The notes beneath the pieces were generated by a model. It searched no databases. It saw only the letters and a list, made by a program, of their open reading frames with translations, and was not told the origin of the DNA. Positions 18,421 to 62,517 of a stretch of DNA of 64,000 nucleotides are shown in pieces (within the stretch, counting starts at the first letter, position 1; every line of letters starts with the position of its first letter). A program made the position numbers and the translations under genes. The DNA is from Acidobacteriota bacterium (GTDB lineage Bacteria > Acidobacteriota > Holophagae > Holophagales > Holophagaceae): the NCBI GenBank assembly GCA_016213735.1, contig JACQZU010000017.1, forward strand, positions 1-64,000. Direction: 5' to 3'.

Positions 18421-18423
18421 GGC

Positions 18424-21230: not shown

Positions 21231-21268
21231 TCCCTCCGGCCGGCGCCTGACCCGGGCCCGCCCTCGAT

Positions 21269-21757: not shown

Positions 21758-22309
21758 GTGAACCTGGTCCTCATGGGTGGGAGTCTTCGTCAGAATTCCT
21801 TGAACGGCCGCTTCATGGAACACGTGGCGACCCTCCTCGAAGGGGCGGGGCATGGGGCGGAGGTCTTTTCGGCGACGACGCTGCGCCTGCCCCTGGTCGA
21901 AGAGGGCCTGCCCATGCCGGAAGGCTTGATTCCAGTGGCTCGGGCCCTGACCGCGGCCCAGGGCCTCGTCCTCGTGAGCCCGGAGTACAACGCCGGCATT
22001 CCGGGGCACCTCAAGAACGCGGTGGATTGGCTGAGCCTCCAGTCCCCCTCGCCCTTCCGGGGACTTCCGGTCCTGCTCTGCGCCTGCTCCCCCGGGGCCC
22101 TGGGCGGGGCGAGGGGCCTGCTCCAGTGGCGGGCCACCCTGGCCAACCTGGGCGCCCTCGCCCTTCCGGGGGTGGTCACGGTCCCCCAGGCCGACCGGAG
22201 CCTCGACGCCCGGGGCGCCCCCACCGACGGGCGGACCCGCGAATTCCTCCGCTCGGCCCTCGAGGAATTCCTCCGGGTGGCCGGCCGCCTGGGGGACCGA
22301 GGTGCGTGA
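21758..22309 (+). CDS. NADPH-dependent FMN reductase family protein
   Basis: Flavodoxin-like NAD(P)H:FMN/quinone reductase, 183 residues. The GTG start at 21758-21760 has GGGAGG four bases upstream. GGSLRQNSLN (7-16) is the FMN phosphate-binding loop and the SPEYNAGIPGHLKNAVDWLS segment (about 76-95) is the family signature. Related enzymes reduce quinones, azo dyes or chromate. The divergent bacilliredoxin suggests a shared role in oxidative or electrophile stress. Confidence 0.88.
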   Translation: MNLVLMGGSLRQNSLNGRFMEHVATLLEGAGHGAEVFSATTLRLPLVEEGLPMPEGLIPVARALTAAQGLVLVSPEYNAGIPGHLKNAVDWLSLQSPSPFRGLPVLLCACSPGALGGARGLLQWRATLANLGALALPGVVTVPQADRSLDARGAPTDGRTREFLRSALEEFLRVAGRLGDRGA

Positions 22310-22336
22310 GATCCTGGAGGCCGTGCGGGAGTCCCC

Positions 22337-24127: not shown

Positions 24128-25549
24128 TCAACCCGGCACCAGGTGGGCGATGGCGTTGGCGTAATAGGCCAGGGCCTCCCCCTGGGCAGGGTCCGCGTGG
24201 AGCAGGCCCCCGCTCTCCCGCAGAATCCTGCGCAGGGTGAGCATCCGAAGGCCGACCCCGAAGGCATAGTCGTGGTCCTGGCGGGGGATGTAGAGGTGGG
24301 CGCCCCGGGCCTCCAATTGGGCCATGAGGGCGTGGGCCTCGGCCTTCAGCTCCAGCTCGGAGAATTGCCGCCCGGGGTTCCGCGCCAGCACCGTGGCCAC
24401 CAGGGAGACGGGCAGCACGGGCACCACCGCCCCGATGGCCTCCATGAGGCGGTCACCCACCCGCGCGACCTCGGGCCTGCGCTGCTCGTCCCCCAGGTCG
24501 GGGAAGTGCAGTCCCCGTTCCCGGACATAGGCCCGCATGGAGATGGGCGTGCCGAAGTTCACGCAGGCGTAGCCCAGACGGTGCCAGCGGCCGGTGGCGA
24601 CGAGCAGAAGGTTCTCCATGAGGAACCCGGAGGCGCGAAGGACCGTGCCGGCGAAGCCAGGTCGGGGCGCGTTGGGATGAAGGGCCAGGAGCTGGGTGCG
24701 GTCCTCCAGGACCCGGTCGTAGTTGAGGCCCACCGGGATGAAGACCAGGTCCCGGCGCCCCTCCCCGTCCCGGCCGTCGAAGCCCTTCAGCATGTAGTCC
24801 AGGAGGCCCAGCTTGGGCGGCCGAAGGCGGCCGTCCTGGGTGAGACCCCCCTCCGGGAACACCGCCTGGATCACACCCCCCTCGGTGGCCATGTGGACAT
24901 AACGGGCGAGCACCGCGCGGTAGAGGGGGTCCCCGGAATTGCGCCGGACGAAGTAGCCCCCCATGGCCCGGACCATCTGCTGCAGGGGCCAGATCCGGGC
25001 CCACTCTCCCACCGCGTAGGAGAGGGCGGCCCGCTCCGCGGCCAGGAAGGCCACCAGGATGTAGTCCATGTTGCTCCGGTGGTTGATCACGAAGACGATG
25101 GACGCGGTCGGGTCCACCTCTCCCAGGGCAGCCTCGTCCACATGGCCGATCCGAACCCGGTAGAGGGCCCTGGCCGCCGCCCGGGCCAGGGCGTAGCCCA
25201 CGCGGAAGTAGAGGTAGGCGTTGAAGCCCGGGACGATCTCACGGGCGTAGCGGTCCACCCGCCGCCACACCTCCCCCAGCGGTTCCCCCTGCTCCGCGGC
25301 CCAGGAGGCGGCCGCGGCCTGGACCTTGGGGTCGTGGAAGAGGCGATCGATGAGCACCTGCCGCCGCGTGAGCTTGAAGGTGGGCAGGCCTACGTGCAGG
25401 CGGGCGTTCACCTGGGTGATGACCTTGTTCAACCGCCGCCGGAGAAACCACCGGACCCCTGGCGCCAGCACCAGGGCCAGCAGCGCCCAGGCCGCCAGCG
25501 CGACCAGCAGCACCACGAGCCAGAGCGGCAGCGTGACGGGGGCCCCCAT
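24128..25549 (-). CDS. PlsB-like glycerol-3-phosphate/lysophospholipid acyltransferase
   Basis: Membrane acyltransferase of phospholipid synthesis, 473 residues. N-terminal membrane anchor (about 8-30). The four acyltransferase blocks are present: HRSNMD at 157-162 (the HX4D catalytic pair), GGYFVRR at 198-203, FPEGG at 231-235 and VFIPVGLNYDRV. This pattern fits PlsB-type G3P acyltransferases more than PlsC, but the protein is only about 60 percent of the length of E. coli PlsB. It shares no gap with sppA, so termination must be within or beyond the opposite gene. Confidence 0.82.
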   Translation of the reverse strand: MGAPVTLPLWLVVLLVALAAWALLALVLAPGVRWFLRRRLNKVITQVNARLHVGLPTFKLTRRQVLIDRLFHDPKVQAAAASWAAEQGEPLGEVWRRVDRYAREIVPGFNAYLYFRVGYALARAAARALYRVRIGHVDEAALGEVDPTASIVFVINHRSNMDYILVAFLAAERAALSYAVGEWARIWPLQQMVRAMGGYFVRRNSGDPLYRAVLARYVHMATEGGVIQAVFPEGGLTQDGRLRPPKLGLLDYMLKGFDGRDGEGRRDLVFIPVGLNYDRVLEDRTQLLALHPNAPRPGFAGTVLRASGFLMENLLLVATGRWHRLGYACVNFGTPISMRAYVRERGLHFPDLGDEQRRPEVARVGDRLMEAIGAVVPVLPVSLVATVLARNPGRQFSELELKAEAHALMAQLEARGAHLYIPRQDHDYAFGVGLRMLTLRRILRESGGLLHADPAQGEALAYYANAIAHLVPG

Positions 25550-25621
25550 GTGAAAACTCCCTGGATCGAGGACGGTGAAAGTCCTGGGATCTTAGCACCC
25601 GGCTCCCCCGTTCCCTGGAAT

Positions 25622-26479
25622 TCAGGGGCTCCCCGGGACCCCCCGCGAGGCCTCGACGAGGAGTCGCTCCGCCCCCTCGGCCTCCCCCACCACCGCCAGG
25701 ACATGGGCCCCTCGCCGGAGGATCCGCAGGGCCCCGTGGTGGGGGTCCTGGACGCGGAGAGGCTCCTCCCCCGTCGGCGCCTCGCGCCGGCCCAGGGACT
25801 TCAGGTAGTCGCCCAGCCGGGCCCGGGCCCGGGCCTCGTCCCCGGGAGCCAGGATCCAGAGGGTGCAGCGCTTTCCCCCGAGGAGGTATTCGGCGGTGAA
25901 GCCCCGATCCAGGAAGGGATAGCCGAGGACATTCCGCGGAATGAAGCGCTCCGATCCGGGCACCTTGCCCCCCGCGGGGAAAGCCTTCAGGAGTGCGGGA
26001 AGGGAGGTCCGGCCGGGGATCCGGGACGCCACCTGCTCCGCGAGCCTGGTGAGCAGGGCGCGGTCGCCCGCTCCCAGCTTGAAGCCGGCGAGCTTCACGT
26101 AGCAGTCGCCCTTCAGGAAGTTCAGGATGCCCGGTTCGTGGTAGCCCTCGGCCGCGATGGGGAGGAAGTGGGCTTCCCGGGAGCGCTCCTGACTGTAGAT
26201 CCCGTAGGCGCAGTCAGGGTCGGCGTGGCGGTAGATCTCCACGGTGAGGCTTCCTCCGCCGGGACCCTCGTAGACCTGGGCCGCAAGCTCCCGGAACTCG
26301 CACTCCAGGAAGCCGTCCGCGGCGCCGTTGATGTGCTCGAAGAGGTTGTCCGGGGTGAAGCGGCGGGGCGCCTCCCGGGTGGCCCAGCCCTCCAGGGCCG
26401 GCAGCAGGGCGGCGAGCTGGGGTGGGGGCAGGGCAGGCGCTGGGGGGGCGCCGAGGAGGAGGGCTGGCCAGAGGATCAC
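25622..26479 (-). CDS. DUF6599 family protein, probably exported
   Basis: 285 residues. The segment FTPDNLFEHINGAADGFLECEF matches the NLFEYINGAAE signature of DUF6599, a family of Acidobacteriota and related bacteria with no known activity. The short hydrophobic N-terminus (VILWPALLLGAPPAPAL) looks like a signal peptide. The start is GTG, eight bases after the stop of the Fe-S aldo/keto reductase, so the two are probably one operon. Confidence 0.75.
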   Translation of the reverse strand: MILWPALLLGAPPAPALPPPQLAALLPALEGWATREAPRRFTPDNLFEHINGAADGFLECEFRELAAQVYEGPGGGSLTVEIYRHADPDCAYGIYSQERSREAHFLPIAAEGYHEPGILNFLKGDCYVKLAGFKLGAGDRALLTRLAEQVASRIPGRTSLPALLKAFPAGGKVPGSERFIPRNVLGYPFLDRGFTAEYLLGGKRCTLWILAPGDEARARARLGDYLKSLGRREAPTGEEPLRVQDPHHGALRILRRGAHVLAVVGEAEGAERLLVEASRGVPGSP

Positions 26480-26486
26480 GGGGGGG

Positions 26487-27689
26487 TCAGACCAGGAACG
26501 CGTCCTGGAGGGTGCGGAGCGACATCAACTCCTCGATGCGGGGCCTCACCTCGAAGCCCTGGACGCATCCCACGGCGCAGGTTCCGCAGGCGGCGCAGGG
26601 GGACTCGGGCAGGGCCAGGGAGTGCACGAGGTCCTTGGCCTGAAGCAGGTTGTGGTAGCCCGCGGCGTACATGTAGCCCCGCATGAGGTCCGGGATGGGC
26701 AGGCCCTGGGGGCACTGAGGCAGGCAGGTCGCGCACTGCTGGCAGTAGAGCCCCGTGGCTTTCGCGGCCCCGGAGAGATCCAGCTTCTCGCCCTCCGTGA
26801 GGGCGAGGTTCTCCATCACCGTCAGGTCCTCCGCCAACTGGTCGAAGGTGGTGAACCCAGGGATCGCGGTGGTGATGCAGGGATCCTGGAGGGCCCACTT
26901 GAGGGCGGCCTTCATGTTCACCGGCGCCGCCTGGCCCCGGGAGAAGCGGCCCCCCGCCTGGGTCTTCATGGCCACGATGCCCAGCCCCGCCTTGACGGCC
27001 TCGCAGCAGGCGGCCTTCACCTCGGCGTGGTGGGCCTGTCGGTAGTTGTAGGCCGTGAGCACGACGTCGTAGACCTTGCTCTCCGCCGCGGCCCGGATGA
27101 CCTCCGGCTCGTTGCCGTGCGTGGAGACGCCGATGAAGCGGGTCTTCCCCTCTTTTTTCAGTTGCTGAAGGGCCTTCAGGATGGGTTCGAAAAGGACGGC
27201 TTCCCGCTTGGTGACGTTGTGGAGGTAGAGGATGTCCACGTGGTCCATCTGGAGCCGCTTGAGGCTCAGGTGGAAGGTCTCGATGAAGGCCTCGGGCTTG
27301 GTGTCGGCCGTGAAAAGGCCCGTCGCCCGGTCCCCGCCCGTGGCCACGACCTTGGTGGCCAGGACAAAGCGCTCCCGCTTCACGCCCTTGAAGACCTCTC
27401 CCAGCATCTCCTCGTTGCGGCCGCGCATGTAGCCATGGGCGGTGTCGAAGTGGACGATGCCCCCCTCCAGGGCAGCCCGCACCAGGTTGGGGTTGTCGGC
27501 GTTCATCACGCCCATGGAGACCACCGGAAGCGTGACCCCGGTCTTCCCCAGGGGCCGTTTCACCACCGTTCTGGCCTTGGGAGGTGGCGCGGAGGCGACC
27601 GGTTTCCCGTCCTGCCCCCGCAGGGCGGGGGTCAGGCCCAGGGCCAACCCCGCGGCGCTGTTCCGAAGGAAGCTGCGGCGATCCACCAT
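26487..27689 (-). CDS. Tat-exported aldo/keto reductase with C-terminal Fe-S domain
   Basis: 400 residues. The N-terminus DRRSFLRNSAAGLALGL is a twin-arginine signal. An aldo/keto reductase barrel follows (about 40-310), with LGKTGVTLPVVSMG, FDTAHGYMRGRNEEMLG (catalytic Asp and Tyr) and a late AIPGFTTFDQLAED cofactor-binding strand. The C-terminus has two four-cysteine clusters: C-x2-C-x2-C-x3-CP (CQQCATCLPQCP) and C-x2-C-x2-C-x3-C (CAACGTCAVGC), enough for two [4Fe-4S] centres. This is a known AKR subtype, but Tat export suggests a periplasmic redox role. Followed directly by the DUF6599 gene. Confidence 0.87.
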   Translation of the reverse strand: MVDRRSFLRNSAAGLALGLTPALRGQDGKPVASAPPPKARTVVKRPLGKTGVTLPVVSMGVMNADNPNLVRAALEGGIVHFDTAHGYMRGRNEEMLGEVFKGVKRERFVLATKVVATGGDRATGLFTADTKPEAFIETFHLSLKRLQMDHVDILYLHNVTKREAVLFEPILKALQQLKKEGKTRFIGVSTHGNEPEVIRAAAESKVYDVVLTAYNYRQAHHAEVKAACCEAVKAGLGIVAMKTQAGGRFSRGQAAPVNMKAALKWALQDPCITTAIPGFTTFDQLAEDLTVMENLALTEGEKLDLSGAAKATGLYCQQCATCLPQCPQGLPIPDLMRGYMYAAGYHNLLQAKDLVHSLALPESPCAACGTCAVGCVQGFEVRPRIEELMSLRTLQDAFLV

Positions 27690-49595: not shown

Positions 49596-50384
49596 TCATA
49601 GGGTCCGAGAAGTGGTGCCCACCTTCTCCAGGCGGCCGAGGAGGCGCAGGAGGCCATCCAGAATCGTCAGGGGGTGAGGCGGGCAGCCGGGGATGAAAAG
49701 GTCCACGGGAACCACCGCCGCGGCCCCTCCCAGCTGTTCCGGGCGGTGGTGGAACGGCCCCCCGGAGAGGGCGCAACTCCCCACCGCGATGACGATGCGC
49801 GGTTCGGGCATCGCCTCCCAGGTCTTCCGAAGGCCTTCCTCCATGTTTCGGGTCACGGGGCCGCAGACCACCAGGCCGTCGGCGTGGCGTGGGGAAGCCA
49901 CAATCTGGATGCCGAACCGGCCCAGGTCCCAGGCCACCGTGGAGAGGACGTTCACGTCCACCTCGCAACCGTTGCAGCCGCCCGCGCTCACCACCCGCAG
50001 CTTGAGCGAGCGGCCGAAGAGGCGCATCAATTCGCCTTCCAGGGCACCCGCCAGGCGCAGCTCGGCGCCGGGTCCCAGGTGAAGATCCTCCCGTTCCCGG
50101 ACCGAGAGACGGTGGTCCCGGGTGAAGGAGATGGCTCCCTCGGGACAGGCCTCGACGCAATCGGGGCAGAATAGGCAGCGGCCCAGGTCAATGCGGGGGC
50201 CCTTTTCCTCGATCCGGATGGCTTCGGTCGGGCAGGCCTCGGCGCAGGTCCGGCATCCATCCGGGCACCTGGAGGCGTTCACCGCGGGGAGACCGCGGAA
50301 TCGTTCCGGCAAGGTGGGCAGGGCCTTCGGGTAGGGCAGCGTGCGGTGACCCTGGCGCAAGCGGGAAAGCAGGATGGAGATCAT
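49596..50384 (-). CDS. Ehr/hydrogenase-like small subunit fused to a 2[4Fe-4S] ferredoxin
   Basis: 262 residues. The N-terminal part (about 35-90) is a two-cluster ferredoxin: Cys40/44/47/51 and Cys70/73/76/80, like HycF/NuoI. The C-terminal part (about 100-255) is NuoB/HycG-like with all four ligands of the proximal [4Fe-4S] cluster: Cys137 and Cys140 in GCNGCE, Cys204 in GSC, Cys234 in GCP. These parts are separate proteins in most group-4 hydrogenases. GGAG sits ten bases upstream of the ATG. The ATG follows directly after the inverted-repeat element; the gene closes the operon. Confidence 0.9.
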   Translation of the reverse strand: MISILLSRLRQGHRTLPYPKALPTLPERFRGLPAVNASRCPDGCRTCAEACPTEAIRIEEKGPRIDLGRCLFCPDCVEACPEGAISFTRDHRLSVREREDLHLGPGAELRLAGALEGELMRLFGRSLKLRVVSAGGCNGCEVDVNVLSTVAWDLGRFGIQIVASPRHADGLVVCGPVTRNMEEGLRKTWEAMPEPRIVIAVGSCALSGGPFHHRPEQLGGAAAVVPVDLFIPGCPPHPLTILDGLLRLLGRLEKVGTTSRTL

Positions 50385-50385: not shown

Positions 50386-50654
50386 GAGTCGAACTCCCCC
50401 TGGGGCGGGTCCGCGCGTGAGGCGGCGGGCAAGCGAGACAACGTAGGTGAGATCCCAGCGGAGCGGGACTGCGTGAACCGAACCGGAGGAGGTATCGCGC
50501 AGCCCGCCGCCCCACCCCCTCCGGGTTGGGGCCGACCGGGCGTCCCGCGGTGTCACGGCGCATGAACGATGTCTGGCATCGCCCTGCGGGCCCTTCCTGG
50601 CGGGCCCTCCCGGCGGGCCAGCCACGCGCGGACGCCCCAAGGGGAGTTCGACTC
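50386..50654. mobile_element. 269-bp element with 32/34-bp terminal inverted repeats
   Basis: The ends 50386-50419 and 50623-50654 are inverted repeats: aligned over 32 positions they differ at one base and by one 2-bp indel. On the minus strand the first arm begins with the last two bases of the large-subunit TGA stop, and the second arm ends one base before the small-subunit ATG, so the element exactly fills the intergenic space. Inside are further short GC repeats and no convincing gene. No target-site duplication is visible. It may be a MITE-like repeat, or a long RNA stem controlling expression between the two genes. Confidence 0.6.
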
Positions 50655-52167
50655 ATAGGTCGTGCCCGCAGTAGGAAAGGTTGAAGCTCTTGTTGCACAG
50701 AGGGAAGTCCGAGATCTGCTCCCCGCGCAGGGCCAGGGCCAGCCCGAACCAGTTGTGGAAGGAAGGATCCACCACCTTGTAACGGGCGAAGCGGCCCTCC
50801 CCATCCGTGACCGCCGCGTGCAGGATCTCCCCCCGCCAGCCCTCCGTGAGGGCGACCACAAAGCGTTCCAGGGCCAGGGGAGGGAGCGGTTCCGGCGCCG
50901 CCTCTGCCGGGCTGCGACCCAGGGCCTCGAGGGCCTCGGCGAGGTGTCGGTGGCTCTCCTTGAGTTCGTTCCAGCGCACCCAGGCCCGGGCGTGGACGTT
51001 TCCGCTCTCTGCGATCGCGGGCGCCACGGGGTGTGCGGTGTAGGGGCCGAAAGGATGGTCCTTCCTCACGTCCCGGGGATGGCCGCATGCCCGAAGGGCG
51101 ACGCCCACCAGGCCCGCGTCCTTCGCCTGGGCCGGGTCCACCTTCCCGGCGGCCTCGAAGCGGTTCATCACCGAGGCGGCACCCCAGAGCAGCTCCACGG
51201 CATCCTGGGTGTCGGCCCAGGCTTTCTCCACCCGCGGAAGCATGCGCTCCGCCAGACCAGGGTCCAGCTCATGGCGGAGTCCCCCGGGCCGCAGCCAGTC
51301 CCGTCCAAGACGGCTGCCGCAGACCTCCGCGCTGAGGTTCAGCCAATCGCCCCGGATCCGACCGCAATAGGAAGCGGTCGGCAGGAAACCGACGTCGCCG
51401 GCCAGCGCCCCCAGGTCCCCGACGTGATTGGCCATGCGCTCCAGCTCAAGGGCAACTCCGCGCACCCGGTCCACCCGAGGAGAAAGGGACCGGCCCACAA
51501 GACCTTCCAGGGCCATGCAGTAGGCCCATGCGTGGCCGATGCTGGTGTCCCCCGCGAGGGTCTCGGCCTGCTTGAGGCTGAGAGGATGGGGGCCGGCCAA
51601 GAAGGCCCGCTCGATCCCGCGGTGCTGGTAACCGAGGGCGATCTCCAGATGGAAGACATGCTCTCCGTGGCACTGGAAGCGGAAGTGTCCGGGCTCGATG
51701 ACCCCCGCGTGGACGGGGCCCACGGCCACCTCGTGGACTTCCTCCCCCGATACCGTGTAGAAGTCCATCACCCCCGGGCGTGGCTCTCCGGCTCTGCCCC
51801 AGGCATCCGGCCCCTCGTTCCAGGGACGATGGAAGCGCACCGGTTTCAGCCAGGGGTGCCCGGTGGGGATGATGCCGAACTGTTCGGCGATCTCCCGCTC
51901 GAAGAGGTGGGCCTGGGGGCACTTGGGTGTGAGGGCGGCGAAGCTGGGCTGGGATAGATGGGTCCGGCCCACCTGGAGGGTGCCGGTATCATCGTCGGCC
52001 AACACCGCCCATAGGGAGGGCCCATCGTCTGCGAAGAGGGCCGCCAGGCGGAAACCTTCCCGGACGCGGTCCAGGATCCCCTCCCGGAATTCGGGAGTCG
52101 GGATGAACGGCAGGTCGGCAAGGGAGACGGGCAGGCCGTTGCGCGTGGAGACGAATGGGACGCTCAC
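50653..52167 (-). CDS. Ehr complex large subunit: NuoC-NuoD/HyfG-like, NiFe ligands absent
   Basis: 504 residues. N-terminal ~130 residues are NuoC/30-kDa-like (HLFEREIAEQFGIIPTGHPWLKPVRF); the remainder is NuoD/hydrogenase-large-subunit-like (GHVFHLEIALGYQHRGIER, VRGVALELERMANHVGDLG). Where group-4 hydrogenases have ERICGIC for the nickel, this protein has ETLAGDT (202-208): both Cys are lost (Ala205, Thr208). The C-terminal DPCxxC is absent too; the end is DFPLCNKSFNLSYCGHDL. So it is unlikely to be a hydrogenase. GTG start with GGGAGG upstream overlaps the stop of the HyfF-like gene. Confidence 0.88.
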   Translation of the reverse strand: MSVPFVSTRNGLPVSLADLPFIPTPEFREGILDRVREGFRLAALFADDGPSLWAVLADDDTGTLQVGRTHLSQPSFAALTPKCPQAHLFEREIAEQFGIIPTGHPWLKPVRFHRPWNEGPDAWGRAGEPRPGVMDFYTVSGEEVHEVAVGPVHAGVIEPGHFRFQCHGEHVFHLEIALGYQHRGIERAFLAGPHPLSLKQAETLAGDTSIGHAWAYCMALEGLVGRSLSPRVDRVRGVALELERMANHVGDLGALAGDVGFLPTASYCGRIRGDWLNLSAEVCGSRLGRDWLRPGGLRHELDPGLAERMLPRVEKAWADTQDAVELLWGAASVMNRFEAAGKVDPAQAKDAGLVGVALRACGHPRDVRKDHPFGPYTAHPVAPAIAESGNVHARAWVRWNELKESHRHLAEALEALGRSPAEAAPEPLPPLALERFVVALTEGWRGEILHAAVTDGEGRFARYKVVDPSFHNWFGLALALRGEQISDFPLCNKSFNLSYCGHDL

Positions 52168-53597
52168 GGCAGGCCTCCCAGGAAACGCGTGGCCCCATCC
52201 AGCATCTCCTGAAGGGGGCGGGGCAGCCAGAGTCCCATCACCAGGGCCAGGACCAGGGCCCCGACCAGGGGTGCGGTCGTGGCGATGGTGTCCTTGTAGG
52301 GCGTCCGGACCCGCTCGTGGCTGGGGGTGCCGAACACCACCTGGAGCACGGTATCGCTCATGCCGAGGAAGATGGCCGACAACAGGAGCAGGAAGGCCGC
52401 CCCGATCCAGACGTGGCCCCCGTTCAGTGCAGCGGCGGCGATGTTGAATTCGCTGATGAAGGGGGCAAAGGGCGGCGTGCCTGTAATGGCCAGGAAGCCC
52501 AGGAGAAAGAGCCACCCGGAGACCGGGGTGCGGCGGATGGCCCCCGTGACGAAGGGCAGGGTCTTGCTCGCGTAGCTGCGATGGATGTTCCCTGCGCTGA
52601 GGAAAAGCACGCTCTTGACCAGGGCGTTGGCGGCGAGGTGGAAGAGGGCAAAGCGCGTGGCGTTCCCCCCGATGCCGATCCCGAGCACGAGGATACCCAT
52701 GTGCTCGACGCTGGAGTAGGCCAGCAGGCGCTTGAAGTCCGCCTGGCGAACCATGAAGACCAAGGCCCAGGCCATGGAGAGCAGGCCGAAGCCGATCAGC
52801 AGTTCCTGAGCGAAGGCCGCCTCCCCGGCCGCGGCCACCACGGCATAGATCCGCAGCAGGGCCAGGAAGGCGCAGCTGGTGACCCCGCCTGCCAGCAAGG
52901 CGCCCACGATTCCGGGAGACTCTCCGTAGGCATCCGGCTTCCAGGCATGCAGGGGGGCGATGCCCATCTTGGTGCCGTACCCCACCAGGCTCAGCACGAA
53001 GCCTGCCCGCAGCCAGGGCTTCGAGAGCAGGGCGGACTCCCGCATCAGGCGGGAGTACTGAAGGGGTTCGCTGAGGCCTCCCGTCTGGGCGGCGTAGGCG
53101 ATGAACAGCGTTCCAAGAAGGGCCAGGGCGATGCCGACGGAGCCGATGAGGAGGTATTTCCAGGTGGCCTCGAGGGAGCGACGGTTCCGGTTGAAGTAGA
53201 CCAGGGGGGCGGTGGCGAGGGTCGTGGTCTCCATGGCCACCCACGCCAGGCCGGGATGCCTCGCCTGGGCCAACAGGGAGGCCATGGCCAGGAAGGTGAG
53301 TAGACTGCCTGTGAAGATCCGGTGGTCCCGGTCAGGACGGAGCTCCAGGTAGGCCGGGGCATAGAGGGCGCAGACCAGGAAGAGGACGCTCACCACCAGG
53401 AGCACCCAGCCCCCCAGCGCGTCGAGGCCCAGCCAGGCGTCCGGGGGAAGGGTGCCCCATCCCCGCAGGGCGCCGACCAGGGCCCCCAGGTGGAGGAGCC
53501 CGGTCACGGCCAGGATGCGGGCACGGACCGTGGGGGAGGGCGTGGCGAAGGCGATGGCCGCGGCGAAGAGGGGGAGGGCGATGAGCAGCCAGGCCAT
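52164..53597 (-). CDS. Ehr/hydrogenase-4 subunit F-like membrane protein (NuoN/Mrp-type)
   Basis: 477 residues, about 13-14 membrane segments. Proton-conducting transporter fold with the central Lys/His helices (GYGTKMGIAPLHAWKPDAYGESPGIVGALLAGGVTSCAFLALLRIY and RLLAYSSVEHMGILVLGIGIG), typical of HyfF. The GTG/TGA overlap links it to the large subunit gene; the HyfE-like gene ends three bases before its start. Confidence 0.9.
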   Translation of the reverse strand: MAWLLIALPLFAAAIAFATPSPTVRARILAVTGLLHLGALVGALRGWGTLPPDAWLGLDALGGWVLLVVSVLFLVCALYAPAYLELRPDRDHRIFTGSLLTFLAMASLLAQARHPGLAWVAMETTTLATAPLVYFNRNRRSLEATWKYLLIGSVGIALALLGTLFIAYAAQTGGLSEPLQYSRLMRESALLSKPWLRAGFVLSLVGYGTKMGIAPLHAWKPDAYGESPGIVGALLAGGVTSCAFLALLRIYAVVAAAGEAAFAQELLIGFGLLSMAWALVFMVRQADFKRLLAYSSVEHMGILVLGIGIGGNATRFALFHLAANALVKSVLFLSAGNIHRSYASKTLPFVTGAIRRTPVSGWLFLLGFLAITGTPPFAPFISEFNIAAAALNGGHVWIGAAFLLLLSAIFLGMSDTVLQVVFGTPSHERVRTPYKDTIATTAPLVGALVLALVMGLWLPRPLQEMLDGATRFLGGLP

Positions 53598-53600: not shown

Positions 53601-54236
53601 TCAGTCCTTCAACTCGGCCATGCGGAGCGTGTCGGTGGAGTCGAAGGCCGCGCGGATGTGGTTGATGACGATCCCCATGACGAAGATGCCCACGAAGAGG
53701 TCCAGAAGAATGCCCGTTTCCACCAGCAAGGGCATCTGCTCCACCAGGAGCATGCCGAAGAGGTAGATCCCGTTCTCCAGCACCAGGTAGCCCACCACTT
53801 GGGTGAGGGCCTTGCGGCGGGAGACCAGGAGCAGGAAACCCGTGAAAAGGGTGGAGAGGGCCGCAGGCACGAAGAGTCCGTGGGCGTCCCCGGGCTTGAG
53901 CGGAAGGTTGTGGGCCAGCACCAGGCTGATCCCGGTGCCGAGGGCGCAGAGCATCAACGAAAGGGTGTAGCTGATGTAGGGGTTCACCTCCCGGTGGATC
54001 TGCACCTGGCGCATGGCCCGGCGCAGCAGGAAGGGAATCAGCCACCCCTTTACCAGGATGGTGGCCGCGGCCAGAAGCAGGACGTGGGTGTGCCTCCAGA
54101 GCCCCATGCTGAGGGGGAGAAAGCCCAGCAGAACACCCTGGAAGGCGGCCACCTGGATGGATTTTTGAACCCGATGGGTGGCCACCAGCGTGAAGTTGGT
54201 GAGCATCGTAAGGGCAATGAGGAGGTCGTGCAGCAT
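53601..54236 (-). CDS. Ehr/hydrogenase-4 subunit E-like membrane protein (HyfE/NuoK-like)
   Basis: 211 residues, about six to seven membrane segments. MLHDLLIALTMLTNFTLVATHRVQKSIQVAAFQGVLLGFLPL at the start and VVGYLVLENGIYLFGMLLVEQMPLLVE later match the HyfE family, whose C-terminal part is related to NuoK. The ATG at 54234-54236 fits the family N-terminus; an earlier in-frame codon would add 24 non-membrane residues overlapping the previous gene. Confidence 0.88.
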   Translation of the reverse strand: MLHDLLIALTMLTNFTLVATHRVQKSIQVAAFQGVLLGFLPLSMGLWRHTHVLLLAAATILVKGWLIPFLLRRAMRQVQIHREVNPYISYTLSLMLCALGTGISLVLAHNLPLKPGDAHGLFVPAALSTLFTGFLLLVSRRKALTQVVGYLVLENGIYLFGMLLVEQMPLLVETGILLDLFVGIFVMGIVINHIRAAFDSTDTLRMAELKD

Positions 54237-54240
54237 CGGG

Positions 54241-55167
54241 TCACACCAGCAGAAGGAGGAACGCGAAGGCGGTGGCGAGGATTCCCGCCACAAGGAACTG
54301 GGGAACACGGTTCATCCGGAGGCGGGCCGTGAAACTTTCCACCAGGCCCACCCCCACCGCCAGGAGGACGAGGAGCCCCCAGAAAGCGGCCCAGTTGAGC
54401 AGACCCCCGAAGGCGCGCGTGAAGAGGGGACCGATGAGCAGCGCCCCGAGAACCAGGAGTTTCAGGGAGGCACCGTAGAGCACCAGGGCCAGGGGCCGTC
54501 CCGAGTGATCCAGCACCATCACCTCGTGGATCATGGTGAGCTCCAGGTGGGTGTTGGGATCATCCACGGGTATGCGGGAATTCTCCGCCAGGTAGACGAT
54601 CGCCCACCCTGCGAGCACCAGGATCAGGGGTGCCATGGCGCGAGAGAACGAAAACCCCGGTGAGGCCAGCATGGTGGAGAGGGACAGGCTGCCGGTGGAC
54701 TTCGCCAGGGCGGCAAAGCCCAGAAAGAGGGCGGGCTCGGCGAGGACCGCGAAGCTCACCTCCCTGGCTGCGCCCATGCCCTCGAAAGCCGAGCCCGTGT
54801 CCAACGCCGACAGGACCGTAAGGAAACGCGCCAGGCCGAAGAGGTAGGCGAAGAACACCGCATCGCCCTGGAAGTGCAGGGGTGCCGGGGAACTGCCGAA
54901 GGGCACCAGAAGGGAGGCGGTGGCCACCGCAGCCACGGTGCCCACGGGCCCCGCCAGGAAGACCCAGGTGGTGGTGCGGCTGAAGACCGCCCGCTTCCGG
55001 GAGAGACGGGCCAGGTCGTAGTAGAGCTGCAGCACCGGAGGCCCGGTACGGCCGGCCACCATGGCCTTGGTCTTGGCAATGAGGCCGGGAAGCAACGGGG
55101 GCAGCAGCAGGGCCGTGGTGAGGTGGAGGGCCACGTGGACGGCGCGGACGAGGAAGGTTTCGAGCAT
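54241..55167 (-). CDS. Ehr/hydrogenase-4 subunit C-like membrane protein (HyfC/NuoH-like)
   Basis: 308 residues, about eight membrane segments. NuoH/HyfC family: GLIAKTKAMVAGRTGPPVLQLYYDLARLSRKRAVF near the N-terminus, and the acidic loop ENSRIPVDDPNTHLELTMIHEVMVLDHSGRPLAL, whose charged residues correspond to those linking the quinone/Fe-S module to the proton channels in complex I. Three bases from the HyfB-like gene upstream. Confidence 0.92.
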   Translation of the reverse strand: MLETFLVRAVHVALHLTTALLLPPLLPGLIAKTKAMVAGRTGPPVLQLYYDLARLSRKRAVFSRTTTWVFLAGPVGTVAAVATASLLVPFGSSPAPLHFQGDAVFFAYLFGLARFLTVLSALDTGSAFEGMGAAREVSFAVLAEPALFLGFAALAKSTGSLSLSTMLASPGFSFSRAMAPLILVLAGWAIVYLAENSRIPVDDPNTHLELTMIHEVMVLDHSGRPLALVLYGASLKLLVLGALLIGPLFTRAFGGLLNWAAFWGLLVLLAVGVGLVESFTARLRMNRVPQFLVAGILATAFAFLLLLV

Positions 55168-55170: not shown

Positions 55171-57108
55171 TTAGGCCACCATCCAGACAAAGAGTCCGAG
55201 CAGGGTGAGCAGGACATAGAGCAGGTAGATGGGAAGGTGCCCCGCCTGGAGGAATCGGAGAGCCCCCAGCCCTCGAGCGGCCCCGCCCAGGCCGGGCTCC
55301 GCGGCCCGGTCCAGGACCAGGTCGGGGAGGTGGCTGGAGAAGGGGCGAGGCCGGGGGACGAAGCCCGCCACCCGCCCCCCGGCGGTCACGGGCCAGAGCA
55401 CCCATCTCATCCCTCTCATCAGCCCTTCCGCGAAGGAGGACGCCGTGTACTGCATGCGGGCAGCCGGGGCGGTGTACCCACAGTCCCAGGTGGGCACGCC
55501 CTCACGGAATGACCGGCCCCGGCTCCAACGCACCAACATCCATGCGCCCGCCAGCAGGGGCAGGGCCATGAGGCTCAGCATGGTCAGGCTCGCCATGGCC
55601 GCCAGGGGGGGGCCCTGCGCGCCCGCCAGCTGGGTCGCCGCACGGTCCAGGGGGCGCCCCAGGAGCACCGGGAAGAACCCGATGAAAGCACAGGCCCCGG
55701 CCAGGACACCCATCGGGCCCACCATAGACGGTGGGGATTCCCGGGCTTCGACCGCTGCGGGGCTCCTGGCCTCCCCCAGGAAGGCGGCGCCGAAGGCCTT
55801 GGCGAAGCAGGCGAGAGCAAGTGCGCCGATGAGGGCCAGCGCTCCCAAGGCCGCCACCGACCAGAGCGCGTGGGGGCGCCCCAGGCCCTGGAAGGCGGCG
55901 AGGTAGATCATCCACTCGCTGACGAAACCGTTGAGGGGAGGGAGCCCGCAGATCGCCCAGGCGCCCGCCAGGAAGGCCAGGGAGGTGCGCGGCATGCGCC
56001 GGGCCAGGCCGCCGAGGGCCTCCAGGTCCCGGGTCCCCGCGGCCTTGGCCGCGGAGCCTGCCGCCAGGAAGAGCAGACCCTTGAACAGGGCGTGGTTCAC
56101 CACATGCAGGAGGGCTCCCCCGAAACCCAGGAGCTGGATGGGCAGGCTGCCGGCGTGCTTGCCGATCAGGCCAAGGCCCAGGCCCAGGAGGATGATGCCG
56201 ATGTTCTCGATGGAGTGGTAGGCCAGGAGCCGTTTCAGGTCGTGCTGCCCCAGTGCGAAGGCCACGCCCAGCACTCCGGAGGCCAGGCCGAGGGCGGTGA
56301 CGCTCCCCCCCCACCAGATCGGGGGGTCCGGCACCCACGCGACGAGACGGGCGAGGCCCAGGATCCCCATCTTGATCAGGACGCCGGACATGACGGCGGA
56401 GACATGCGAGGGTGCAGCGGAATGGGCCGGGGGAAGCCAGAAGTGCAGGGGGAGGGCACCGGCCTTGAAGGCGAAGCCCGCCAGGAAGAGGAGGAAGAGG
56501 GCGCTGCCCAGGGGGGAGGAGGCGAATCCCGGGGTCCAAGGGCCGAAGGCCAACCCCCCCGCGGCTTTTGGCAGGAGCGCGAAGGCCGAGAAGAGGAAGA
56601 GGGTGCCTGTGTGCGTGGCGGCCAGGTAGACATAGCCCGCCCGCCGCGTGGCAGGATCCCGGTCCTCCGCCATGACGAGGACGAAGGCGGCCAGGGCCAT
56701 GCCCTCCCAGCCCAACAGGAATGTAAAGGCGTGCTGGGCGCCCGTCAGCAGGATGAGAAAGCCTGCCAGGACGCCGAACGCGGCCCTCACCGTGCGGCTG
56801 TTCTCCCGGTGGTCGTCCCAGTAGGCGAGGCCGTACACCGAGGCCGATCCGAAGAGGATGCACACCGGAATCAGGAAGATTGCCCCCAGGGGATCCAGAT
56901 GCAGAAAGCCCCAATCCAGCACCCTCTGGTTGGGCAGGGCCACGGCGCCGGTGGCTCTCCCCAGCAGGACCTGCAATGCGGCCAGGAGGCCCGAGGCGGC
57001 CGAGGAACCCATCAGCAGGGCGGCACTCCGCCCGCCCCCACGCTTCATGAAGAGTCCCGGCAACCCCGAGAGGAAGGCAAGAAGGAGGGTGGCGCCGAAG
57101 AGGATCAT
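55171..57108 (-). CDS. Ehr/hydrogenase-4 subunit B-like antiporter protein (second copy)
   Basis: 645 residues, about 15-16 membrane segments. NuoL/HyfB-type: FKAGALPLHFWLPPAHSAAPSHVSAVMSGVLIKMGILGLARL and KRLLAYHSIENIGIILLGLGLGLIG include the conserved Lys and His helices. The C-terminal stretch TWDCGYTAPAARMQYTASSFAEGL is shared with the gene upstream. The ATG overlaps the stop of that gene by four bases. The two antiporter proteins are diverged paralogues. Confidence 0.91.
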   Translation of the reverse strand: MILFGATLLLAFLSGLPGLFMKRGGGRSAALLMGSSAASGLLAALQVLLGRATGAVALPNQRVLDWGFLHLDPLGAIFLIPVCILFGSASVYGLAYWDDHRENSRTVRAAFGVLAGFLILLTGAQHAFTFLLGWEGMALAAFVLVMAEDRDPATRRAGYVYLAATHTGTLFLFSAFALLPKAAGGLAFGPWTPGFASSPLGSALFLLFLAGFAFKAGALPLHFWLPPAHSAAPSHVSAVMSGVLIKMGILGLARLVAWVPDPPIWWGGSVTALGLASGVLGVAFALGQHDLKRLLAYHSIENIGIILLGLGLGLIGKHAGSLPIQLLGFGGALLHVVNHALFKGLLFLAAGSAAKAAGTRDLEALGGLARRMPRTSLAFLAGAWAICGLPPLNGFVSEWMIYLAAFQGLGRPHALWSVAALGALALIGALALACFAKAFGAAFLGEARSPAAVEARESPPSMVGPMGVLAGACAFIGFFPVLLGRPLDRAATQLAGAQGPPLAAMASLTMLSLMALPLLAGAWMLVRWSRGRSFREGVPTWDCGYTAPAARMQYTASSFAEGLMRGMRWVLWPVTAGGRVAGFVPRPRPFSSHLPDLVLDRAAEPGLGGAARGLGALRFLQAGHLPIYLLYVLLTLLGLFVWMVA

Positions 57109-59066
57109 CCCCGCATCCAGGCCCGCACGAGCATCCAGAGGAAGACGCCCAGGAGCGCAATCAGAACGTAGAGCAGATAGACGGAGAGGTTGCCCTGCTG
57201 GAGGCGGCGGAAGCGAAGAAGGCGGTCCGCGAGTTGGGCCAGGCGGGGTTCGAGGGCGTCCAGACCCAGGGGGTCCCGCTGCGTGGGATGGAATCCCGTC
57301 GGGGGGGGAAAAAGGGCCCGGGGGGTCCGTACCCTTGCCCGGATGCCCGGAAGGAGCGCGGACCATAGGTCGGCGAAGGACCCCCCCGTGTACTGCATCC
57401 TTGCGGTGGGGGCGGCGTAACCGCAGTCCCAGGTGGGCGGAACGGAGGTTTTTTCCGCGAAGCCCCGACGCACCCAGGCCACCAGGGGAACCCCTGCTGC
57501 GATGAGCAGGAGCTGGAGCACCAGGAAGAGACGAAGGTCTCCACTCAGGAGGGTGGACAGGGGAATCGGGGTGCCTGGAAGGAGGGGGCTGAGCGCCCGC
57601 TCGAGCAGGGGCAGCAGGGGGACCGCGGCGAGTCCGAGGGCGAGGCAGAGGACCCCCAGGATGGCCAAGGGCCACGTCATCGGCGTCGGGGGGTCGTGGG
57701 CCCCCGCCCCGGCGGGGCCCCTGGCCTCACCCAGGAAGACTGCACCGTAGAATTTCCCGAAGGCCACCGCAGCGAGGCCCCCCGTGAGGGCGAGGGCCGG
57801 AAGGGCCAGGCTCGCGGACCAGGGATTCCCCCGCAGGAGGCCGGCGAAGAGGCCCCGGTAGAGGAACCACTCGCTTGCAAAGGCCGCGAAGGGCGGGAGG
57901 GCCGAGACTGTCAGCACCCCCGGCAGCATGGCCAGCGCCGTGCGCGGCATGAGCTTGGCTAGCCCTCCCAGCTCGTCGATCCGCCGCGTGCCCGTGGCGT
58001 GGAGCAAGGCCCCCGACCCCAGGAAGAGAAGCCCCTTGAAGGCGGCGTGATTCAGCATGTGGAACAGGGCCCCAGCAAAGCCCAGGGCGGCGAGCGCGGG
58101 GTCGCCGACGGCGCGCCCGGCCATTCCCAATCCGATCCCCATCGCGATGATTCCGAGGTTCTCGATGCTGCTGTAGGCCATGAGGCGCTTGTAGTCCGCC
58201 TGGGCCAGGGCGTAGGCCGCTCCGTAGAGGGCGGTGAAGGCCCCCAGGGCGAGCAGCAGCGCGCCGGCGTGGGGGACCGGCGGCAGGAGGGAGGAGACCC
58301 GCAGGATTCCGTAGATTCCCGCCTTCAGCATCACCCCGGACAAGAGGGCGGAAACGTGGCTGGGGGCCCCCGCGTGGGCCGCGGGAAGCCAGAAGTGCAG
58401 AGGGAGCAGGCCCGCCTTGAAACCGAAGCCCACCACCGCCAGCGCGAGGATGGCCAGGTCCAGTCCGCTCGCGGGCCCCTGGGCCGGGACCCACAGAGGC
58501 CCCCCCACCCGCCGGGCTAGAAGGATGGCCATCGCCACCAGGGCTGCGGTGCCGACGTGGGTGGCAGCCAGGTACACCCAGCCGGCCTTGGCAGCCTCGG
58601 GCTTGTCGTGCTCGGTGGAAATCAGGAAGAAGGCCGAGACCGCCATCAACTCCCAGGCCACGAGGAAGAGGAGTCCCTGACGGAGCACGAAGACGAGGGT
58701 CAGTCCCGCCACCAGCAGGGCGTAGCAGCAGCGGAGGGGGACTCCGCGACCCTTGCCCACGGGGAGGGGCCAGTAGGCGCTTCCATAGACCAGGCCAAGG
58801 GCACCTAGGACCTGCAGGGGCACCAGGAAGAGGGCCGAAAGGGAGTCCATCTCCGCCCAGGCCGTCAGGCCCCAGAAGCGGAAGGCCAGGCCGGAGAGGT
58901 GGCCCGTCCAGAGGGCGTGGGCCGCCCCTCCGGCGGCCAGGAGGGCGGCCGCCAATCCCAACCCCAGAAAGGTTCGCTCGCTGGTCCGGGCGAGCGCCCC
59001 CGCCCCCGCAGCGATGATCCAGCACCCGGCGGCTGCTAAGACCAGGAGGAGATCGGTGGAGGGCAT
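57105..59066 (-). CDS. Ehr/hydrogenase-4 subunit B-like antiporter protein (first copy)
   Basis: 653 residues, about 16 membrane segments. NuoL/HyfB family with FKAGLLPLHFWLPAAHAGAPSHVSALLSGVMLKAGIYGILRV and KRLMAYSSIENLGIIAMGIGLG. C-terminus with TWDCGYAAPTARMQYTGGSFADLW, almost the same as in its paralogue. First gene of the operon. With the second HyfB-like protein and HyfF it gives three antiporter-like modules, so the complex could translocate several ions per turnover. Confidence 0.91.
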   Translation of the reverse strand: MPSTDLLLVLAAAGCWIIAAGAGALARTSERTFLGLGLAAALLAAGGAAHALWTGHLSGLAFRFWGLTAWAEMDSLSALFLVPLQVLGALGLVYGSAYWPLPVGKGRGVPLRCCYALLVAGLTLVFVLRQGLLFLVAWELMAVSAFFLISTEHDKPEAAKAGWVYLAATHVGTAALVAMAILLARRVGGPLWVPAQGPASGLDLAILALAVVGFGFKAGLLPLHFWLPAAHAGAPSHVSALLSGVMLKAGIYGILRVSSLLPPVPHAGALLLALGAFTALYGAAYALAQADYKRLMAYSSIENLGIIAMGIGLGMAGRAVGDPALAALGFAGALFHMLNHAAFKGLLFLGSGALLHATGTRRIDELGGLAKLMPRTALAMLPGVLTVSALPPFAAFASEWFLYRGLFAGLLRGNPWSASLALPALALTGGLAAVAFGKFYGAVFLGEARGPAGAGAHDPPTPMTWPLAILGVLCLALGLAAVPLLPLLERALSPLLPGTPIPLSTLLSGDLRLFLVLQLLLIAAGVPLVAWVRRGFAEKTSVPPTWDCGYAAPTARMQYTGGSFADLWSALLPGIRARVRTPRALFPPPTGFHPTQRDPLGLDALEPRLAQLADRLLRFRRLQQGNLSVYLLYVLIALLGVFLWMLVRAWMRG

Positions 59067-59383: not shown

Positions 59384-60664
59384 TCACTCCGGCGTGATCA
59401 CCGCCTCGTCCTCCCGGTAGGCGAAGAGCTCCCCGAAGCGGGCCCAGGCCACCAAGGTCCCGAAGGTCTGCTCGGCGTTCTCCGTGGGCAGGCGATGGGC
59501 GATTTCGTGGAGCAGCTCTTCCTTGTGGAGCCGGCCCTCCCGGAGGTCCAGCAGCTCCATGACCACCCTGAAGAGGCGCAGCTTGAGGAGCTGCTCGCGC
59601 CACAGGTCCTTGCGGGCGTCCATGTCCAGCGTGAGGAACCGCTTGCCGATGTCCGTGAACTTCACCGAGCGCTTCGGAGTGTCCACGAAATCCAGCATCT
59701 CCGCGGCCTTCACCGTGGTGAGCACGAACTCGAAGGGCACGTGGGTCTGGCTGGCCACCACGAAAAGGTCGCACTGCCCCCCCTGGGCCTCCAGGAACTC
59801 CATGAGCCCCAGGATGTCGGGACTGCCCACGTGGGGAAGGGGCTCGATGGGCTCCGGGAGGTTGGCCATGCTCGGGGCGCTCACCTCCACGTCCGGGAGC
59901 TCCGCGCTGGTGATGATGTCGTGAAGCTTGTCCACCAGGCGCATGAATTCCGGGCTGCGGGGATTCCGGGGACGGGACAGGGGGACCGGCAGGATGGTTC
60001 GGATGTGGGACGGATTGCCTGAAAGCACCACGATGCGGTCGGCCAGCAGGACCGCCTCGCGAAGGCTGTGGCTCACCAGGACGATGGAGCTGGGGTTTCG
60101 CTCGGCGTCCTCCCAGATGTCCAGGATTTCCGCGCGGAGGGCTTCGGCGGTCAGGGCGTCCACCTGGCTGAAGGGCTCGTCCATCACGAGGATCTCCGGG
60201 TCCACCGCCAGGGCCCGGGCCACGCCCACGCGCTGCTTGGAGCCCCGGGACAGTTCCCGGGGGTAGGCCTCCTCGAAACCCTCCAGGCCCACCTTACGGA
60301 TGGCTTCGTGCGCCTTCTGTCGAACCTCCTCGTCCGGAAGGTCCCGGGCCTGGAGCACCACCCGGACGTTCTGCTCCACCGTCATCCAGGGGTACAGCGC
60401 GAAATCCTGGAACACCATGGCCACGCCGGGATTCAGTCCCACCAGGCGCTGGCGATGGAAGCGGATCTCCCCCCGCGTGGGCTCCGCAAGCCCGGCCATC
60501 AGCCGGAGCAGGGTGGACTTGCCGCTGCCGTTCGGGCCAACGATGGCCAGGATCTCGTCCTGAAGGACCTTGAGATTGACATCCTCCAGGACGCGGATTT
60601 CCTTGCCCTTCGGGCCCTGGAAGCTCTTCTGGACGCCCCGGAGTTCGCAGATGGGAGCCGACAT
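59384..60664 (-). CDS. ABC transporter ATP-binding protein, NitT/TauT-like with C-terminal extension
   Basis: 426 residues. The ATPase domain (about 5-235) has Walker A GPNGSGKST (43-51), signature LSRGSKQRVGVARAL, Walker B ILVMDEPFSQVD and switch His VSHSLREA. The signature is LSRGS rather than LSGGQ, as in some members of this subfamily. The C-terminal ~150 residues (SPDILGLMEFLEAQGGQCDLFVVASQTHVPFEF ... TLVAWARFGELFAYREDE) correspond to the AAA-associated domain fused to some nitrate/sulfonate-type ATPases. Downstream of the fused permease gene; no substrate-binding protein gene is nearby. Confidence 0.9.
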   Translation of the reverse strand: MSAPICELRGVQKSFQGPKGKEIRVLEDVNLKVLQDEILAIVGPNGSGKSTLLRLMAGLAEPTRGEIRFHRQRLVGLNPGVAMVFQDFALYPWMTVEQNVRVVLQARDLPDEEVRQKAHEAIRKVGLEGFEEAYPRELSRGSKQRVGVARALAVDPEILVMDEPFSQVDALTAEALRAEILDIWEDAERNPSSIVLVSHSLREAVLLADRIVVLSGNPSHIRTILPVPLSRPRNPRSPEFMRLVDKLHDIITSAELPDVEVSAPSMANLPEPIEPLPHVGSPDILGLMEFLEAQGGQCDLFVVASQTHVPFEFVLTTVKAAEMLDFVDTPKRSVKFTDIGKRFLTLDMDARKDLWREQLLKLRLFRVVMELLDLREGRLHKEELLHEIAHRLPTENAEQTFGTLVAWARFGELFAYREDEAVITPE

Positions 60665-60774
60665 GGATCGTCCTCAACGCTGAAGCGCAGCAGCGCCATG
60701 AACACGATGGGAGCCCCGGAGGAAGGCCGCGGGGGAACCCTGCGCATCATGGTGCTGGGGCGTGGATGGGTGTT

Positions 60775-62517
60775 TCACCGCGTCACCGAGTACTTGGTCT
60801 CGGCCAGGCGGTAGAGCGGGACCCAGACGAGACGGTTGAAGAGCACCACCAGGCCGGCCATGAGCAGCGCGCTGGCGGTCAGGAGGGGGATGTTGCCCTG
60901 GTCCGCCATCTGGGCCACGGTGGCCCCGAGGCCGAAGGTGGTGAAGGTCTGGCCGCGCAGTTGGACGTACTCCGTGATGATGCTCGCGTTCCAGGCTCCC
61001 CCTGTGGCGGTCACCCAACCCGTCACCAGGAAAGGGAAGACCGACGGGAAGTACAGCTTCCAGGCCGTTCCCCAGAGGCCGAACCGGTAGGCCCGGGCGG
61101 CCTCCCGCAGGTTGCTGGGAATCGCCTGGGCTCCGGCGATGATGTTGAAGAGGAGGTACCACTGGGTGCTGAGGGACATCAGCAGGATGCTGCTGGTGAA
61201 GAGGCCGATGCCGGTCCGCTGCAGCAGCACGACGAAGGTCACGAACAGGATGCTGGCGGGGAAGCTGGCGACCACCTGGACCACGGGCTGAAGGCGGCGG
61301 GACCAGGTGGGGGAAAGGCCGATCCAGAGGCCGACCGGGACCGTCCAGCAGGTGGCCAGGGCGGTGGAGGTGAGCACCCGCCCCATGGAGGCGGCCCCGG
61401 CCTGGAAGATGGTTCCCCATTCCCGGGCCGTCACCAGGCTGAGGAGGCCCCAGAGCTTGAAGGCCCCCAGGGCCAGCATGATGAGCAGCATCACCAGCAT
61501 CCCCAGGCCCAGGCCCCTCTGGAAGGCGGTGTTGGACTTCTGGGCGGTGTCGAGGGTGGTGCGGGGCCGCGGGGCCCAGGCTCGCATCCGCTCGCGCCAG
61601 GCGAGGCGCAGGCGGTTGGCCAGGGCCGAGCGGCGCAGCACCCGGAGCAGCCAGCTCTGGGGTTTCTCCACCTTCACCGCCTCGTCCATCTGGAACCGCT
61701 GGCTCCAGGCCACCACGGGCTTCCAGAGCAGCTGATCGAGCAGGACGACGATGAGCAGCATGGTCCCGATCGCGTAGAGCTGGGCCTTCACGTCCCCCTG
61801 GTTCACCGCCACCGACATGTAGGCCCCGATCCCGGGAAGCCGGAAGTCCCGGCTCCCCAGGTTGAAGGCCTCGCTGGCCATGAGGAAGAACCAGCCGTTG
61901 GCCACGCTGACCATGGAATTCCAGACGAGGCCCGGCGTGGCGAAGGGCAGCTCCACCCAGCGGAAGCGCTGGAGCCAATTGAGACCGTAGCCCCGGGCCA
62001 CCTCTTCAAGGTCCCGTGGCACGGTCTTGAGGCTCTGGTAGAGGCTGAAGGCCATGTTCCAGGCCTGGCAGGTGACGATGAGCAGCACCGCCGACAGCTC
62101 GATGCCGACGTTGCTCCTGGGGAAGAGGCCCACCATGGCCAGCAGCACCACCGGCATGAAGGCCAGGAGGGGCACGCTCTGGAGAATGTCGAGGATGGGG
62201 ATCAGAACCCGCTCCGCCAGGGTGTCCTTGGCCGCCCAGTAGGCCACACCCAGGGTGAAGGCGGCGGAGAGCGCGTAGGCCGCCCCGGCCCGCACGATGG
62301 ACAGGAAGGCGTAACGGGGCAGGGCCAGGGGGGAGAGATCGATCTCCACCTTGGGTCGCTGGAGGACGGTCCACTCCCTCGCGGCGATGACCAGGCCCGC
62401 GAAGAGTCCCGCGAGGGCGAGGAGCACGAGGATGTCCATCCACCGTCGCCGGCGGATGGGAGCGGTCAGCAGGTTGGTGGCCTGCCCCCACATGCTGTCG
62501 AGAATCCGGTTGAGCAT
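60775..62517 (-). CDS. ABC transporter permease, two permease domains fused
   Basis: 580 residues with two binding-protein-dependent permease domains (about 75-265 and 365-560), each with about six membrane segments and an EAA loop: EEVARGYGLNWLQRFRWVELPFATPG in the first and REAARAYRFGLWGTAWKLYFPSVFPF in the second. Fused double permeases of this kind occur in NitT/TauT-type transporters. The ATPase gene follows after 110 bases. Substrate unknown. Confidence 0.9.
   Translation of the reverse strand: MLNRILDSMWGQATNLLTAPIRRRRWMDILVLLALAGLFAGLVIAAREWTVLQRPKVEIDLSPLALPRYAFLSIVRAGAAYALSAAFTLGVAYWAAKDTLAERVLIPILDILQSVPLLAFMPVVLLAMVGLFPRSNVGIELSAVLLIVTCQAWNMAFSLYQSLKTVPRDLEEVARGYGLNWLQRFRWVELPFATPGLVWNSMVSVANGWFFLMASEAFNLGSRDFRLPGIGAYMSVAVNQGDVKAQLYAIGTMLLIVVLLDQLLWKPVVAWSQRFQMDEAVKVEKPQSWLLRVLRRSALANRLRLAWRERMRAWAPRPRTTLDTAQKSNTAFQRGLGLGMLVMLLIMLALGAFKLWGLLSLVTAREWGTIFQAGAASMGRVLTSTALATCWTVPVGLWIGLSPTWSRRLQPVVQVVASFPASILFVTFVVLLQRTGIGLFTSSILLMSLSTQWYLLFNIIAGAQAIPSNLREAARAYRFGLWGTAWKLYFPSVFPFLVTGWVTATGGAWNASIITEYVQLRGQTFTTFGLGATVAQMADQGNIPLLTASALLMAGLVVLFNRLVWVPLYRLAETKYSVTR

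Follow-up and report, generated by a model that had tools for sequence, protein, structure and literature searches.

The locus raises the question of what a hydrogenase-like complex does once its large subunit has lost the NiFe site. In the window, by which we mean the whole stretch of 64,000 nucleotides analysed here, seven genes on the minus strand (59066 to 49596) encode EhrA-1, EhrA-2, EhrB, EhrC, EhrD, EhrL and EhrS, in that order (Table 1). The original prediction had read this operon as two HyfB-like proteins, HyfC, HyfE and HyfF with a large and a small subunit, and had assigned it to the Ehr class. Pfam and NCBIfam matches bear out the seven-gene content, and gene content, subunit order and motif state agree with published Ehr (PMC7894505, PMC3569383, PMC4378227); the operon almost certainly encodes an Ehr complex. 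The class, its missing CxxC motifs and its unknown function have already been published (PMC3569383, PMC4378227, PMC10284858, PMC6349859), the function being called unknown in PMC4378227 and PMC10284858. The window adds a new member of this class, in a relative of Geothrix living in soil or sediment.

Table 1. Positions of the Ehr subunits, motif sites and the intervening element in the window, followed by the small subunits of relatives without N2 ligands
Feature	Position	Strand	Description
EhrA-1	57105..59066	-	HyfB/NuoL-type antiporter-like subunit; PF00361 8.9e-51; NCBIfam hydrogenase 4 subunit B 4e-147
EhrA-2	55171..57105 (start approximate)	-	Second HyfB/NuoL-type antiporter-like subunit; PF00361 1.3e-51; hydrogenase 4 subunit B 6e-148
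EhrB	54241..55167	-	HyfC/NuoH-type; PF00146 1.1e-27; six acidic residues invariant across homologues
EhrC	53601..54308	-	HyfE-type; PRK11492 hydrogenase 4 membrane subunit 8e-25, match from residue 25; true start probably ~24 codons inside the annotated ORF
EhrD	52164..53597	-	HyfF/NuoN-type antiporter-like subunit; PF00361 1.3e-42; hydrogenase 4 subunit F 7e-89
EhrL	50653..52167	-	HycE/NuoCD-like large subunit without NiFe site; PF00346 and PF00329; GTG start at 52167, 504 aa, zero internal stops
EhrL ETLAGDT (residues 202-208)	51544..51564	-	Former ERICGIC Ni-Fe motif position
EhrL C-terminal CNKSFNLSYCGHDL (residues 491-504)	50656..50697	-	Former DPCxxC site
269-bp element	50386..50654	-	~32-bp terminal inverted repeats; not part of the complex
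EhrS	49596..50384	-	2x[4Fe-4S] ferredoxin domain fused to NuoB-like N2-cluster subunit; PF12838/PF13187 and PF01058; ATG start at 50384, longer TTG ORF begins at 50441
N2-less, Allomeiothermus silvanus			Ligand positions TDES; isolate plasmid
N2-less, Mycobacterium branderi	L175, 13477..14271		NDDA; isolate plasmid
N2-less, a Planctomycetales			NEEW
N2-less, an Opitutae			DVCW
N2-less, two Verrucomicrobiota			SEEW
N2-less small-subunit loci	L048 15263..16144; L056 11522..12316; L102 5179..5976; L115 11551..12393; L150; L175 13477..14271

Among PDB chains, EhrL best matches HycE from the E. coli formate hydrogenlyase (7z0s_E, E=8e-43), with NuoD next, and the same chain is the nearest fold (TM 0.84) to its AlphaFold2 single-chain model, which has a pLDDT of 83 and a C-terminus of low confidence. 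The nickel-hydrogenase family PF00374 nevertheless finds no match in EhrL, though E. coli HycE matches it in Pfam. When EhrL QAETLAGDTSIGHAWAY is aligned with E. coli HycE SDRVCGICGFAHSTAY, ETLAGDT falls opposite DRVCGIC and NLSYCGHDL opposite DPCYSCTDR, so that all four positions of the NiFe-ligand cysteines are substituted (C to A, T, S and G). The loss of both NiFe-binding CxxC motifs was thus correctly predicted, as were ETLAGDT in place of ERICGIC (DRVCGIC in HycE itself) and the absence of the C-terminal DPCxxC. EhrL ends with DFPLCNKSFNLSYCGHDL and the stop codon at the aligned cleavage position of HycE, where APLIIGSLDPCYSCTDR is followed by MTVV; this is the point at which hydrogenase-3 is cut during maturation. 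The window's EhrL therefore lacks both marks of a group 4 [NiFe] hydrogenase, the four cysteine ligands and the C-terminal extension removed by an endopeptidase.

Orthologues with intact CxxC motifs, which would have spoken against the original prediction, were not found: the motif occurs in none of 174 distinct EhrL sequences, and the first cysteine alone is retained in 8 of them. Because the absence runs through the whole set, the loss is an ancient, family-wide state, and it belongs to the entire Ehr clade and is not a peculiarity of the window's gene. Asp207, within ETLAGDT, is present in 171/174 distinct sequences and in 89/90 of a smaller homologue set, and nearly all of these 90 homologues end in a GxDL terminus. 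Cys491 and Cys500 are both present in the window's EhrL; in the MBX/MBS sulfur-reducing complexes, an active-site cysteine pair serves sulfane reduction. The possibility that Cys500 is a redox residue linked with the ferredoxin domain was considered and rejected: the by-locus correlation is near-perfect, but the residue changes once on the tree, which makes it a clade marker and not independent evidence.

In a tree from a quick search, with some long branches and an outgroup of only two rows (HycE and HyfG), the window's EhrL falls among the Ehr large subunits and not with the hydrogenases, in a Holophagaceae clade (100 SH-aLRT) within the ferredoxin-bearing clade. A scan of named genomes gave 80 Ehr loci, in Geothrix and other Holophagaceae, Geobacter, Desulfovibrio, Planctomycetota, Verrucomicrobiota, Elusimicrobia and others. 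More distant forms, mostly without the ferredoxin domain, are carried on plasmids of Burkholderiales, rhizobia, Azospirillum, Rhodococcus and methylotrophs. Two operons may also occur together: a Variovorax plasmid (L044) has two different Ehr operons adjoining (8857-16141 and 19553-26737), of which only one has the ferredoxin domain, and a Verrucomicrobia genome (L106) has two tandem operons of different types (4240-12290 and 12290-19900).

Geobacter and Geomonas are among the nearest named relatives of the window's EhrL (54-56% identity). The Ehr operon of Geobacter sulfurreducens (GSU0739-45, with EhrA-1, EhrC, EhrL and EhrS named in PMC7894505) likewise has seven genes and no NiFe ligands, and shares the NuoL-like, HyfE-like, large and small subunits; its physiological role was never investigated, according to the same paper. 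With E. coli formate hydrogenlyase and hydrogenase 4 (HycE/HyfG, group 4a), the window shares the subunit types HyfB, C, E, F, G, H and I, but it lacks the NiFe ligands, the cleavable C-terminal tail, the hyp linkage and the formate dehydrogenase, and the counterparts of HyfH and HyfI are fused in its EhrS. Among solved chains, EhrS matches mbhJ (6cfw_J, 4.6e-34). Formate hydrogenlyase-like loci of actinobacteria, on a Rhodococcus plasmid (L047) and the M. branderi plasmid, have the same six subunit families and no NiFe ligands; the former has no ferredoxin clusters, and in the latter both the N2 ligands and the GHDL tail have been lost. The Rv0082-Rv0087 locus of M. tuberculosis is presumably of this same actinobacterial kind.

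Within the operon, the 269-bp element shares two bases with the end of the ehrL stop codon and occupies the space up to ehrS. In the other Holophagaceae checked there is no such element, and ehrL and ehrS overlap by 1-11 bp or sit 7 bp apart. The element is predicted to form a very stable hairpin (z -7.55) and is single-copy in the window's genome. Its inner ~200 bp recur at ~70-78% identity in 48 further family genomes, so that kin of this part are found in 49/77 family genomes counting the window's, often in nine or more copies. The inner part represents an undescribed MITE-like or RNA-like dispersed repeat.

The original prediction had also pointed to the lack of hydrogenase maturation genes nearby. 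No hyp gene indeed lies near the operon, but this is not evidence by itself, since the genome-wide search proposed alongside the prediction located HypD elsewhere (C15:52689), together with several PF00374 NiFe large subunits, true hydrogenases among them, on other contigs. These PF00374 homologues include C7:429524-431080, C15:72413-73786 and C12:121114-122343, at least one of them strongly hydrogenase-like. The relatives are more informative. Among 77 family genomes, Ehr is present in 43 and HypD in 33; HypD is missing in 20 of the 43 Ehr-bearing genomes, 12 of which are at least 96% complete. Ehr is thus kept without NiFe maturation in close relatives, and needs no such maturation.

Across 84-101 sequences, little or no variation is seen at the TM5 Glu, TM7 Lys and TM12 Lys of EhrA and EhrD, and at six NuoH-type acidic residues of EhrB; E139, K217 and K344 of the EhrA-1 ion path are invariant across the Ehr family. 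The small subunit was predicted to keep all its Fe-S ligands, and the window's EhrS does retain 8 ferredoxin-type and 4 N2-type cysteines. The N2 quartet is complete in about 155 of about 161 distinct complete small subunits, and most of them retain the ferredoxin clusters. Electron transfer is under selection in the large majority of Ehr complexes, that of the window included.

The reading that we prefer, and regard as about evenly poised between right and wrong, is that Ehr is an ion pump of the complex I and group 4 hydrogenase type, driven by ferredoxin and reducing an acceptor that is neither protons nor a quinone. The original description, an ion pump with an unknown partner, agrees with the invariance of the ion path and with the lack of ligands for H2 and for quinone. 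Reduced ferredoxin, the most likely low-potential carrier, would pass electrons to the pair of [4Fe-4S] clusters in the ferredoxin domain of EhrS and from there to the N2-type cluster, at which a small acceptor would be reduced in the remodelled EhrL cavity. This cavity would be unable to hold a NiFe centre, or a quinone head-group in the manner of complex I. Reduction would drive H+ or Na+ through the three antiporter-like subunits EhrA-1, EhrA-2 and EhrD, together with EhrB. We infer donor, direction, acceptor and ion from sequence; electron-transfer-coupled ion translocation is assumed for the family, and no demonstration of it was found in the Ehr literature cited here.

The neighbourhood of the operon does not name the partner. 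No donor or acceptor gene was seen to be conserved beside Ehr operons at the loci compared, which counts against the preferred reading, and no NuoEFG NADH-dehydrogenase module is found among the window's ORFs between 40000 and 64000. Just upstream, at 59384-62517 on the minus strand, the window encodes an ABC transporter with a double permease and an ATPase with a C-terminal AAA_assoc_C domain. It was rejected as a partner, since it was not found at any other locus searched, among them the four in Holophagaceae for which sequence upstream is available. A SulP transporter was likewise set aside, as it adjoins Ehr at 5 loci only.

A serious rival, though rather unlikely to be correct, holds that Ehr is a redox-gated or non-redox ion transporter, in which the membrane arm acts as antiporter or channel and the peripheral arm serves regulation or sensing, with Fe-S clusters that register redox state instead of carrying a catalytic current. 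The N2 quartet and the ferredoxin clusters, kept in most small subunits, speak against it. Support for it comes from six relatives that have lost the N2 ligands, through at least five changes on the tree (Table 1). Isolate plasmids represent A. silvanus and M. branderi, and the other four come from draft metagenome or unnamed assemblies; a seventh apparent loss, at L118, lies on a frameshifted contig and was excluded. In 5/6, acidic residues occupy two of the four N2 positions. The ion-path residues of the membrane arm are retained wherever they could be read in the four N2-less lineages covered (A. silvanus, the Planctomycetales, the Opitutae and one of the two SEEW genomes). Moreover, the two SEEW sequences differ by a dN of 0.10 and a dS of 1.06, a dN/dS of ~0.1, which means that the gene is maintained under purifying selection. 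With the ion path intact in such relatives, redox catalysis in the cavity cannot be essential to every member of Ehr, a point against the preferred reading.

The same rival draws on a gene with HTH_17 and PTS_EIIA_2 domains, which is present at 40/63 loci with enough upstream sequence, directly adjoining a HyfB gene in 32 and elsewhere in the locus in 8 more; the phospho-His of its EIIA domain is conserved in 39/42. The nitrogen-type PTS is known to regulate ion transport. Such PtsN-like genes, for example L063 4092-4847 and some 40 similar ones, stand beside Ehr operons in many phyla, and a partial literature search found no published link between them and Ehr. The Geobacteraceae loci L061, L079 and L083 have the gene beside the operon, whereas a PF00359 protein is wholly lacking from the window's genome; this counts against the gated transporter here, and for the same reason the gene was set aside as a component of the system in the window. 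Judging by the relatives, the half of the complex that moves ions seems to matter more than the old catalytic half. We tentatively propose a broader form, itself unlikely on present evidence, in which Ehr complexes would be redox-optional ion transporters, with ion movement as the first target of selection and the peripheral arm as a gate; redox state might set this gate, joined in many lineages by PTS phosphorylation through the adjacent HTH-EIIA protein.

Less probable still is menaquinone reduction, in which Ehr would be a ferredoxin:quinone oxidoreductase that resembles complex I but has its quinone pocket rearranged. EhrL is homologous to NuoCD overall, Ehr and complex I share fold and ion-path residues, and D258 is common to EhrL and NuoD and not found in HycE. 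Both ligands of the quinone head-group are, however, substituted in 90/90 EhrL sequences: the equivalent of NuoCD His224 is Ile, and that of Tyr273 is Gly, the Gly of CGIC as placed by alignment. The genome's own NuoD retains the His region GPQHPSTHG and RMDY. Eight residues (D207, N247, D251, D467, N492, K493, N496 and S498) reach a conservation of at least 95% among Ehr sequences and differ from those of HycE, HyfG and NuoCD, and two of these Ehr-only invariants, Asp207 and Lys493, stand where the quinone ligands of complex I are missing. On these alignments, the EhrL cavity is not a quinone site of the known complex I kind, and its conserved polar residues suggest that selection maintains a pocket here and that the site is not dead.

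A formate-linked complex of formate dehydrogenase and Ehr has been proposed for Margulisbacteria and Saganbacteria (PMC6349859). Ehr subunits of G. sulfurreducens are more abundant on formate (PMC7894505), and Ehr subunits are also more abundant in syntrophic coculture (PMC8691401). A distant formate dehydrogenase could still donate electrons, but no FdhF-like gene occurs in 1.69 Mb around 95 Ehr loci and the window (96 loci), Ehr and the TIGR01591 formate dehydrogenase show no association by a Fisher test over the 77 family genomes (p=0.26), and TIGR01591 has no match above cut-off in the window's genome; such a link is very improbable. A last reading makes Ehr a working hydrogenase whose active site is unusual. 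The reported four-cysteine EhrL of Desulfotomaculum ruminis (PMC3569383) and the hyp genes elsewhere in the window's genome might be cited for it, but it can hardly be upheld when the NiFe ligands and the cleavable tail are absent and many Ehr-bearing genomes are without HypD.

Ehr complexes occur widely among anaerobes, and many aerobes carry them on plasmids; two chemistries that might be assumed for them, those of H2 and of the canonical quinone, are removed by the present analysis. The N2-less relatives provide natural experiments, and the HTH-EIIA protein is a candidate regulator; whether Ehr is a redox pump at all becomes a directly testable question. If the redox-optional reading is true, the N2-less lineages would be relatives of complex I that work without electron transfer to the old active site.
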